13,108 nucleotides of DNA, taken from a bacterium. GTDB taxonomy: Bacteria; JAJVIF01; JAGGVT01. Location: assembly GCA_021157815.1 (NCBI GenBank), contig JAGGVT010000019.1, positions 1 to 13,108 on the forward strand. Reading direction: 5' to 3'. Both the position numbers and the translations under genes were made by a program. The notes below the pieces were generated by a model that was given only the letters and a program-made list of their open reading frames with translations, made no database searches and had not been told where the DNA came from. The number at the start of each line of letters is the position of its first letter. Positions within the stretch are counted from its first letter, which is position 1. Positions 3,402 through 9,647 of this stretch are shown one piece after another.

Positions 3402-3426
3402 TTAATTTGTACCGGGTACAAATTAA
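3402..3426. repeat. 25-bp perfect palindrome, copy 1, after the lipoprotein gene
   Basis: Arms TTAATTTGTACC and GGTACAAATTAA flank a single central G. The palindrome starts 7 bp after the stop codon of the upstream lipoprotein gene. As RNA it could fold into an 11-bp stem with a CGG loop. It has no long following U-tract, so it is at best an atypical terminator. It shares 20 identical bases with the copy exactly 120 bp downstream. It could be a terminator, a protein-binding site or one end of a small repeat element. Confidence 0.75.
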
Positions 3427-3521
3427 ATTTCAGGAAACTTTCTGGTTGTGATAAATATCCTCAGTTGGCTGTATTAATGCCCGTTTGAGTGAATTATCCA
3501 AAAGAGGGGGATTCGGACTAT

Positions 3522-3546
3522 TAAATTCGTACCGGGTACAAATTAA
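3522..3546. repeat. Second copy of the palindrome, beside the sugar transferase stop
   Basis: This is an imperfect copy of the palindrome at 3402-3426. The left arm TAAATTCGTACC differs from the perfect arm at two positions, and the right arm is identical. It lies 6 bp beyond the stop codon of the convergent minus-strand gene. Both convergent genes therefore end at the same distance from a copy. The 95 bp between the copies have no ORF or other structure that I recognise. Confidence 0.7.
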
Positions 3547-3552
3547 ATCCAA

Positions 3553-5659: not shown

Positions 5660-6334
5660 TTGATTCTATTCGACAACGACGGCACCTTGAACACACGTTT
5701 CTCATGCTGGCGATACACTCAACAGGCGCTGGGAATATTCGAGCCTGAAGTCCAATCTCTTATAGATGATTATCATGCGAATAAAATCAATTATGAGGAA
5801 TTCACAAGGTACTCTGTAAAACGTTGGAAAGGAATGAGAGTCGATGATTTCGAACGGGTAATCAATGAAATCTCTCTTAGAGAAGGCGCTCTTGATGTTT
5901 TGAACTATTTCAAGAATCATGGATATCATGTTGCATGCGTATCAAGCGGATTCGATTTCTGGAAATCAGTATTCGAGAAAAAGCACGGTTTCATTTTTGA
6001 CGCTTTTCTCGCAAACCATGTTATTGTTAATGAGAACGGTATCCTGACAGGTGAGGTTGATGTTATAGTCACGGATGACACGCCATTAAAAAACAAAGGC
6101 GAACAGTTGAAAAAACTATGCGGCAAATTCGGAATAAATCCCAGCGAGTCCATAATGGTTGGCGACGGTCTTGGCGATATAAAAGCATTCGAACTCGCTG
6201 GTTTGTCATTCGCGGTTGACCCAACTCATGACGAGGTCGCAAAAGCGGCTGATCATTTGGTTGGAAATAACTCGCTGGCTGAAATAATGGATTATTTCAA
6301 GGATGGAGTTTACAATCATCCATTGGATGGATAG
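5660..6334 (+). CDS. HAD-superfamily phosphatase, phosphoserine phosphatase-like (subfamily I)
   Basis: Predicted cytoplasmic phosphomonoesterase acting through an aspartyl-phosphate intermediate; the substrate is not determined by sequence. All four HAD motifs are present. Motif I is 'FDNDGT' with nucleophile Asp5 and acid/base Asp7. Motif II is 'VSSGF' (Ser95 or Ser96). A motif III lysine lies in 'PLKNKG' (144 or 146). Motif IV is 'GDGLGD' (Asp169, Asp173). A helical C1-type cap fits residues about 15-75, as in SerB-like enzymes. The length, 224 residues, is normal for the family. The start is uncertain: TTG at 5660 has no ribosome site, while an in-frame CTG at 5636 lies 5 bp after GGTGAT and would add eight residues. 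The stop codon TAG overlaps the left end of the inverted-repeat element that follows. Family secure; calling it serB would be unsupported. Confidence 0.88.
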   Translation: MILFDNDGTLNTRFSCWRYTQQALGIFEPEVQSLIDDYHANKINYEEFTRYSVKRWKGMRVDDFERVINEISLREGALDVLNYFKNHGYHVACVSSGFDFWKSVFEKKHGFIFDAFLANHVIVNENGILTGEVDVIVTDDTPLKNKGEQLKKLCGKFGINPSESIMVGDGLGDIKAFELAGLSFAVDPTHDEVAKAADHLVGNNSLAEIMDYFKDGVYNHPLDG

Positions 6335-6557
6335 CATAGGGTTTAAGAGCGTGTCGGGAAAGCATGTTGATTCTTAAACATACCATTTTCCTGATAACTC
6401 ACGGGTGCCGCCCACACATCACGTCTTTTTGTGATTTGTGGGTGAAATGCATGACTTCGCAACATGTCACCCATAAAGCCGAGACGGCTGTATGGGCGGC
6501 ACCCGATGTTTTAAATCAGTTTGGTGCCTTTCCCGACAGGCTCTTAAACCCTATGCT
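6333..6557. mobile_element. 225-bp MITE-like element with 30-bp terminal inverted repeats
   Basis: The ends 6333-6362 and 6528-6557 are inverted copies matching at 29 of 30 positions, beginning AGCATAGGGTTTAAGAGC. Inside are more inverted repeats. CGGGTGCCGCCCA at 6402-6414 pairs perfectly with TGGGCGGCACCCG at 6493-6505. TGGGTGA (6439-6445) pairs with TCACCCA (6467-6473), and a small ATCAC/GTGAT stem lies near 6417-6435. There is no transposase gene, and I see no clear target-site duplication. The left edge falls within the TAG stop of the HAD gene; the right edge is 32 bp before the ymdB start. It is most like a non-autonomous transposable element, but it could also be a structured RNA or intergenic regulator, since a transcript would fold into a long branched hairpin. 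Confidence 0.7.
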
Positions 6558-6589: not shown

Positions 6590-7381
6590 TTGAAAATCTG
6601 TTTCATAGGTGATATTGTCGGACGTCCCGGTAGGACAATCGTAATTGACCTTCTTTCAGGCATAAGGAAAGAACACGATCTTGATTTCGTAATCGCAAAT
6701 GGTGAAAATGCGTCAGGGGGCACAGGGCTTGTCCCGCATAACGCTGAAACTCTTCTGGATGCCGGAATCGATTTTTTCACCAGCGGAAATCATATCTTTC
6801 AAAACAAGGAGTATGAGCACCTCTTCGCATCCTATCCGCAGGTGATTCGACCGGCTAACTACCCCGATTCCGTCCCGGGAAAGGGTTTTTATACAATGGA
6901 GCCTGTCAGGGGTGCGCCAATCACCGTGATTAATATTATTGGAAGAACATTCATGGATCCGATGGACTGCCCTTTTAAGGCCATTGACAAGATTCTGGAC
7001 AATCTTCCTGATGATTCAAAAATAATTATTGTGGATTTCCATGCTGAAGCGACAAGTGAAAAAATAGCGATGGGCTGGTATCTTAACGGGCGAGTCAGCG
7101 CGATGGTTGGAACTCATACACATGTGCAGACATCCGATGAAAGAATTCTCAGTGAGGGAACTGCCTATATAACTGATGTCGGCATGGCAGGTCCCATTGA
7201 TTCAGTAATCGGAGTGGAACGAAAGGCTATCTTAAGGCGTTTTCTCACAGGCCTTCCAACTAAATTCACAGTGGCAAAAGGGCCGTCAAAACTCAATGCG
7301 GTTATAATCGACGTGGATGAGGACACAGGCAACGCGCGGTCAATTGAACGCCTGTCGATTACACGAAAATATCCATCATAA
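6590..7381 (+). CDS. ymdB: YmdB-family metallophosphoesterase (2',3'-cyclic nucleotide 2'-phosphodiesterase)
   Basis: A dinuclear-metal phosphodiesterase of the family named for Bacillus YmdB, which hydrolyses cyclic nucleotides and influences biofilm and motility decisions there; the role here is inferred only. Metal-ligand motifs are intact: Asp8 in 'GDIVGRPGR', Glu39-Asn40 in 'NGENASGG', Asn67-His68 in 'SGNHIF', His151 in 'DFHAEATSEK', and His176 and His178 in 'GTHTHVQT'. The C-terminal 'YITDVGMAGP' and 'ERKAILRRFLTGLP' are also typical. The 263 residues match the usual length. The start is TTG with AAAGGA 9 bp upstream. Usual members have 'GNHVWD'; here it is 'GNHIFQN', a change next to but not at the metal ligands. 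It is followed after 26 bp by a lipoprotein gene, probably in the same operon. The inverted-repeat element lies just upstream. Confidence 0.93.
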   Translation: MKICFIGDIVGRPGRTIVIDLLSGIRKEHDLDFVIANGENASGGTGLVPHNAETLLDAGIDFFTSGNHIFQNKEYEHLFASYPQVIRPANYPDSVPGKGFYTMEPVRGAPITVINIIGRTFMDPMDCPFKAIDKILDNLPDDSKIIIVDFHAEATSEKIAMGWYLNGRVSAMVGTHTHVQTSDERILSEGTAYITDVGMAGPIDSVIGVERKAILRRFLTGLPTKFTVAKGPSKLNAVIIDVDEDTGNARSIERLSITRKYPS

Positions 7382-7407: not shown

Positions 7408-7977
7408 ATGAAAAATAATCTATATCCCATTATCTTTCTATTTGGTCTGATTGGGCTTCTTTTTCTTGTAGGATGTGCCTCAGAGCCGAATTTCCCTCCA
7501 GGTTTGCCATGCGGAGAAGTTTCAATCACTCCATTTGCAGACAGCCAGCATCCCGGAGCACGATTCGATTTTGAAACAGGCCAGATAGTCTATGAAGCTG
7601 ATATGCCTGTCGCGGGAGATATTTTCTTCGACCGCAAATTCGTATGCGGCAGCGGAGCTCCACTGTGGGTCGGTGTGCAGGATACTCAACCGCAAAGTAT
7701 CGGCGCGGACCCGTCAGCTCCCTCAATGGGATATGAATTTCCCGATAATGATTCAGGTGTGCCGTCACGGGAAGGCCTATACACCAGCCACGTTTACTGG
7801 ATTAAACTCACTGATGGGAAATACGCTAAAATTAAGATCAAGGAAGCGATTTTAAATGATGATACTTCGGATTATAAAAGCATCACATTTCAATGGGTCT
7901 ATCAGCCGGATGGTTCCACTAATTTCAAGGGCAAAGAAGTGGAAGAGGAAGTGGAAGAGGAAAACGAGACAGGTTAA
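7408..7977 (+). CDS. Small lipoprotein of unknown function, possibly HmuY-like
   Basis: The 189-residue protein has a lipoprotein signal peptide ending in lipobox L-V-G-C with Cys23. GGGAG lies 6 bp before the ATG. The mature part has 'RFDFETGQIV' followed by 'GDIFFDRKF', and later 'YWIKLTDGKYAKIKIKEA' and 'ITFQWVYQPDGS'. This order of strands recalls HmuY-type lipoproteins ('F.LetG', 'WD.aF', 'G.YAK...', 'ftY'), but the likeness is from memory and weak. There are too few conserved heme ligands to claim heme binding. The C-terminus ends in an acidic tail, 'EVEEEVEEENETG', encoded by a near-repeat of GAAGTGGAAGAG. Directly downstream of ymdB with a 26-bp gap, so likely co-expressed. Function unknown. 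Confidence 0.85.
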   Translation: MKNNLYPIIFLFGLIGLLFLVGCASEPNFPPGLPCGEVSITPFADSQHPGARFDFETGQIVYEADMPVAGDIFFDRKFVCGSGAPLWVGVQDTQPQSIGADPSAPSMGYEFPDNDSGVPSREGLYTSHVYWIKLTDGKYAKIKIKEAILNDDTSDYKSITFQWVYQPDGSTNFKGKEVEEEVEEENETG

Positions 7978-9400: not shown

Positions 9401-9415
9401 TCGTCCGTTTGCAGG

Positions 9416-9551
9416 TTAGCAAGTTAGCAGGTTAACAAGTTAGCAAGTTAGCAGGTTAGTAGGTTAGCAAGTTAGTAGGTTAGCAAGTTAGTAGGTTAGC
9501 AAGTTAGTAGGTTAGCAAGTTAGTAGGTTAGCAAGTTAGTAGGTTAGCAGG
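9416..9551. repeat. Tandem array of 17 units of 8 bp (TTAGYARG)
   Basis: There are 17 back-to-back 8-bp units of the form TTAG(C/T)A(A/G)G; only the third, TTAACAAG, departs from it. From 9464 to 9543 the units alternate strictly as TTAGCAAG-TTAGTAGG, giving five copies of a 16-bp higher-order repeat. The edges are degenerate (TTTGCAGG before, TTGTAGTG after). Because 8 is not a multiple of 3, TAG on the + strand and TAA on the - strand recur in every frame, so the array cannot be coding. It lies between the BON lipoprotein and the TPR gene. Confidence 0.95.
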
Positions 9552-9647
9552 TTGTAGTGAACTCGCACCCTGGCATATTGACAAGCTCAGTACAAGCTGT
9601 CCCTTCGCCGGGATTCTTTATGTTTCCAATAACTCTAAGATATCTTC

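Follow-up and report, generated by a model that had tools for sequence, protein, structure and literature searches.

Between a gene for a HAD-like hydrolase and one for a ymdB-like phosphoesterase in a draft bacterial genome (3.2 Mb in 221 contigs) lies a block of 225 bp with inverted ends and further inverted repeats nested inside. An earlier note on the window (the whole stretch of 13,108 nucleotides that was analysed, contig C160) took the block either for a MITE with long terminal repeats or for a structured RNA or attenuator, and the question is which of these it is, or of what it is otherwise composed. The block is real and consists of three nested repeat layers (Table 1), and is neither a simple MITE nor a proven RNA. 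Very likely the layers are a host palindrome, a non-autonomous element (F2) placed in the loop of that palindrome, probably by an IS1182-like, hairpin-recognising enzyme, and a RAYT-linked REPIN that F2 carries as cargo.

Table 1. Features of the locus in window coordinates
Feature	Position	Strand	Remarks
HAD-like hydrolase gene	5660-6334	+	palindrome edge falls within its TAG stop (6332-6334)
Left half of host palindrome	6333-6346	+	stem AGCATAGGGT 6333-6342; loop or TSD copy TTAA 6343-6346
F2 element, 197 bp, non-autonomous	6347-6543	+	elements of this length with these ends recur at many sites
Left terminal inverted repeat GAGCGTGTCGGGAAAG, 16 bp	6347-6362	+	from end-motif search
REPIN, ~103 bp	6402-6505	+	a spacer between two REP units, inverted and diverged; present outside F2 too
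REP unit A	6402-6444	+	98% mean pairwise identity among copies
REPIN spacer	6445-6467	+	variable; some copies have it inverted
REP unit B, diverged, inverted	6468-6505	-	includes the covarying 5-bp hairpin
Right terminal inverted repeat GAGCCTGTCGGGAAAG, 16 bp	6528-6543	-	from end-motif search
Right half of host palindrome	6544-6557	+	loop or TSD copy TTAA 6544-6547; stem ACCCTATGCT 6548-6557
ymdB-like phosphoesterase gene	6590-7381	+	downstream of the block; TTG start at 6590

Composition and copies of the block

The 30-bp inverted ends of the earlier note are present, positions 6333-6362 and 6528-6557 matching on opposite strands at 29 of 30 positions (97% over 30 bp), but they are not a single terminal repeat: each is a composite of 14 bp of host palindrome and 16 bp of element end. 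Also borne out are the left edge within the TAG (6332-6334) of the HAD-like gene, the right edge 32 bp ahead of the TTG at 6590, the lack of a transposase gene inside the block, and the nested inner repeats, which on folding form three hairpins within GC-rich CGGGTGCCGCCCA arms. Since a TAG at the edge is frequent in the host palindrome family (ATAGCAGAGGG...CCCTCTGCTAT), the overlap with the stop codon may need no special explanation.

The objection to mobility that a single copy would have raised falls away, as the genome search gave many copies with conserved ends. With the block as query, matches were obtained at 40 scored places among ~160 candidates, and the F2 end motif GAGCNTGTCGGGAAAG, at no more than 2 mismatches, has 169 genome matches versus 3 for a reversed-pattern control. 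Most F2 copies are 194-200 bp long with an interior that varies by subfamily, being the REPIN, a GC-rich CCCCGCGAGCGGGG pair or a palindrome-c element; one locus (L068) has four nested levels, namely palindrome b, F2, a palindrome-c element and F4, a second element described below. The block was found in 0 of 19 other genomes searched, and neither a plasmid collection nor an exact-pattern search of a genome-contig collection gave a match; the exact F2 ends are present in 3 of 385 genomes, the host genome among the 3. Only three other genomes from the host's phylum were available for comparison.

It is very unlikely that the entire 225 bp is one ordinary MITE with long terminal repeats and a fixed short target. 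The block is multi-copy and non-coding and has terminal inverted repeats, as such an element would, but beyond the 16-bp ends the aligned copies lose identity (54-57% between copies in the outer 14 bp), yet the two sides pair within most copies. The outer 14 bp match free-standing palindromes, copies with other outer palindromes contradict a common end, and the inner part is found without the ends. What remains of the MITE interpretation is the 197-bp middle layer, F2 being short, non-coding and multi-copy with terminal inverted repeats and a target site duplication; the outer arms of the 225 bp are its target palindrome.

Other repeats are found in the window. Positions 9415-9555 hold a tandem GTTAGCAAGTTAGTAGGTTAGCAG-type repeat, the source of the commonest 14-mer in the sampled genome sequence (96 occurrences), and arrays of this type adjoin several F2/REPIN copies (L005, L010, L016, L021, L022 and L023). 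A near-identical palindrome pair, TTNGTACCGGGTACAAATTAAAT, lies at 3406-3428 and 3526-3548, where chance would produce none.

Palindrome loops as sites of F2 and F4

The host palindrome in the window is AGCATAGGGT-TTAA-ACCCTATGCT, with its TTAA loop duplicated around F2; the assignment of the palindrome halves rests on the flanks of 54 F2 copies, among which other copies carry the halves of other palindromes. These host palindromes around F2 ends are unrelated and include CAGAGGGT and ACCCTCTG about TTAA, TTTA or TAAA, CACCATGC and GCATGGTG about TTTA or TAAA, CATTCCCGC and GCGGGAATG about TTTC, and an imperfect type, CCTCNNAC-GTNNGAGG. Palindromes of the same kinds that lack an insert, in a 585-kb sample, show a spacer of TTTA or TAAA in type b (12/12), of GAAA or TTTC in type c (22/22) and of 5 nt in type e (14/18), and occupied sites carry the spacer on both sides, e.g. 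CACCATGC-TTTA-F2-TTTA-GCATGGTG. TTAA reads the same on both strands, so the window copy alone cannot distinguish direct repetition from symmetry of the stem; the argument for loop duplication rests on the asymmetric loops.

F4 (131 bp, ends GGGGCTGTTGAAAAAG, 178 end matches with 0 in the control) shares the palindrome-c loop with F2 and also enters loops of 5 nt (ATCCT, TTCCA) and 6 nt (GTAGCC). For the direct-repeat and dyad counts, ends were matched with up to 3 mismatches for F2 and up to 2 for F4, in sets made up of copies from the searches and from sampled stretches (~0.6 Mb) rather than a full census. An exact 4-bp direct repeat flanks 29 of 54 F2 copies, versus 14% for randomly re-paired flanks, and is absent from about half. 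The dyad statistic is confined to copies in which at least 4 bp of direct repeat survive, and in 24 of 31 such F2 copies and 17 of 20 such F4 copies the midpoint of the repeat falls exactly on the dyad of the rejoined target; a stem of at least 7 pairs is centred exactly at 0.4% of random places. The length of the repeat tracks the target loop at 4, 5 or 6 bp: F4 copies, whose element ends are identical, have dyad-centred repeats of 4 bp (10 copies), 5 bp (5) and 6 bp (2). Open reading frames of at least 150 codons, which make up 76% of the sample, contain 8 of 78 F2 ends and 0 of 38 F4 ends.

The same nesting could be the work of a sequence-recognising enzyme with a flexible stagger of 4-6 bp, to which the palindromes are suited by their sequence. 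The commonest target loops are indeed A+T-rich or purine/pyrimidine runs (TTAA, TTTA, GAAA), and in one F2 copy (L133) the TTAA repeat is not within a clear palindrome, but we regard this reading as rather unlikely, although it deserves serious consideration, in that at least five unrelated palindromes are used and the length of the repeat follows the loop although the F4 ends are identical.

Some F2 copies have mismatched host halves (L127, L021), which may be due to ectopic recombination or, because the genome is a draft in 221 contigs, to assembly error. At L107:13997, L050, L161 and L191 the flanks are inverted, not direct, with inserts between CCCGCGAAA and TTTCGCGGG, perhaps because a longer palindromic element has lost its central part. 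Recombination does happen, as is evident from the mixed flanks and inverted spacers, and recombination or template switching at palindrome centres might in principle have produced the nesting with no transposase at all; this is improbable, since loop direct repeats at precise element ends, and the IS1182 relic with F4 ends considered below, suit transposition better.

The inner REPIN

The earlier note judged the inner GC-rich arms to be more than a simple MITE needs; the inner structure is a separate mobile element, a REPIN. Unit A and inverted unit B align with a score of 55, the best of 2000 shuffles reaching 36, and identity among copies (REP A 98%, REP B 90%, spacer 75%, F2 interior 72-80%, flanks 34%) displays the two inverted REPs and less conserved spacer of a REPIN. 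A 24-mer of the inner part has 93 genome matches, 81 of them exact, with 0 in the control; outside F2 the REPIN has unrelated flanks, and unit B is missing in 14 of 65 unit-A copies. The same REP is also found beside a RAYT gene: one of the nine Y1_Tnp genes of the genome (at C84) has inverted unit A immediately on both sides and encodes a product of 182 aa that scores 92.8 bits, against a cut-off of 80, with NF047646 (REP-associated tyrosine transposase), and the left REP unit of the window is identical to the C84-flanking unit at 49 of 49 positions. A PDB sequence search with the RAYT gave no match. Judged from these sequence relationships, the REPIN would be moved by the RAYT. Homogenisation or RAYT-dependent renewal are possibilities for the far better conservation of unit A than of its carrier F2.

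Compared with other copies, four loci (L060, L102, L132 and L107:15626) have the spacer between the REP units in the opposite orientation. An exact REP A 27-mer occurs at 7597-7623 of viral contig L243 (IMGVR_UViG_3300016457_001200), the sole viral contig matched.

The fold of the 225 bp is very stable (-121.5 kcal/mol versus -60.1 +/- 4.5 for dinucleotide shuffles; z = -13.7; 0/200 as stable), as would befit an attenuator or structured regulatory RNA in the HAD-ymdB interval, and the covariation analysis proposed for the inner stems did detect three compensating pairs in one 5-bp hairpin (14 cells, 0/500 shuffles). Most stem pairs, however, show no covariation, and the three that do could also arise by REPIN or DNA-hairpin evolution, e.g. 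by arm-to-arm palindrome repair. Neither broad covariation nor a fixed orientation was found: 51 of 55 unit-A copies with enough flank are intergenic, and these occupy all gene orientations (31 tandem, as 18 and 13, 12 convergent and 8 divergent). Moreover the block has no Rfam match, the locus has no terminator-like site, and the conserved sequence is the one that flanks a RAYT gene. A regulatory RNA is very unlikely.

Candidate transposases and related systems

The earlier note proposed a search for an autonomous transposon with the same ends, and none with exactly those ends was found. No transposase lies between F2 ends in the ~0.6 Mb of sampled stretches or at the examined transposase loci of this assembly, a draft that may have lost repeats, and none was recognised, by eye and from ORFs, at the F2-end loci (L230, L232, L233) of a genome of the same class (G001). 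One 1.6-kb candidate (L108) has end matches that arose by chance around a gene that we take, from its sequence, to be seryl-tRNA-synthetase-like, and an intact DUF772 transposase at C155 was rejected as a partner of F2 on account of different ends (GGTACCGTTGCAAAA). An F2 copy at L028 (C108, ~1257-1640) is split by a 207-bp element, for which the ends are GAGACCGTTGCA and the direct repeat is AACTT (5 bp); ends like these flank the C155 gene (an intact 337-aa DUF772/DDE transposase).

F4 ends enclose a decayed, frameshifted transposase at C90, which matches NF033551 IS1182 in two pieces (E 1.5e-32 and 1.1e-19), the fragments falling below the whole-protein cut-off. Intact IS1182-like genes in other genomes have ends (GGGGCTGTTGAAAAA) near-identical to those of F4, and F2 ends and IS1182-type ends are alike at 10 of 15 positions. 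Because of the shared targets, the loop duplication and the similar ends, a related IS1182-type enzyme probably moves F2. Among IS1182-like elements elsewhere of which both ends were read, only one (L218, genome G170) is clearly within a palindrome; this intact element is bordered by palindrome arms of 18 bp, GGGGTCAAGTCTTTACA, has no direct repeat and appears to resemble an IS1272-type insertion. Another (L215) shows a 5-bp repeat but no clear hairpin.

Close known systems are IS1272 and TnSha1, members of the IS1182 family in staphylococci, of which IS1272 replaces the hairpin with no target duplication (PMC5678879, PMC4923244). The elements described here share with these the hairpin targets of unrelated sequence, the 16-bp ends and, through the F4 relic, an IS1182-type transposase (PMC5678879, PMC4923244), but unlike IS1272 they keep the stem and duplicate the loop, and so are not of the inverted-repeat-replacing kind. 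A loop-duplicating outcome with the stem kept is pathway c in the model of PMC5678879, and the present pattern fits that pathway, which is modelled but was unreported for IS1272 in a literature search that missed most subscription journals.

The inner layer resembles the REPINs with RAYTs of PMC3116915 in its inverted REP doublet, variable spacer, ends more conserved than the spacer, single units as apparent remnants and a RAYT gene flanked by the same REP; it differs in being carried mostly at a fixed position within a DDE-type MITE. Palindromic sequences that contain REP dimers have been reported from A. variabilis, H. neapolitanus and T. roseum (PMC3733652), and palindrome c has the CGTC-1 layout of that work, with a CGTC tag, an 8-bp stem starting AT and a 4-nt loop; there the REP is the insert, whereas here REP-like palindromes also serve as targets for DDE-type elements. 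Insertion into extragenic palindromes is shared with IS1397, ISKpn1, ISPsy8 and others, each of which is said to be specific to the REP type that its host carries (PMC1525189), whereas F2 and F4 use several unrelated palindromes. The preferred reading of the locus is nested insertion into a palindrome loop, and IS1397 reportedly enters the loop with a short duplication.

On this reading a short palindrome would first have been present between the HAD gene and ymdB, and F2 would have entered its loop with duplication of the TTAA, probably by means of a hairpin- or cruciform-recognising DDE transposase of IS1182-like type that, we infer, cuts both loop edges of the extruded hairpin. The F2 lineage would carry a REPIN that belongs to the resident RAYT and would thereby spread the REPIN as cargo. 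In this way a single unit stacks a DDE-type MITE with a RAYT-linked REPIN, mobile systems that are unrelated to each other.

Scores of copies suggest that the jumping enzyme selects its target by DNA shape. The more general proposal, held tentatively as something close to an even prospect, is that the IS1182-like transposases here choose the hairpin shape and cut at the loop edges, the duplication length being set by the target loop and not by the enzyme. Target duplication is usually regarded as a fixed property of a transposase, whereas here the same ends give 4-, 5- or 6-bp duplications; this loop dependence points to DNA-shape targeting and makes the proposed pathway testable. If the proposal is true, every palindrome, including the elements' own products, becomes a landing site and nested palindromes result, which would explain how multi-level palindromes can build up between genes.
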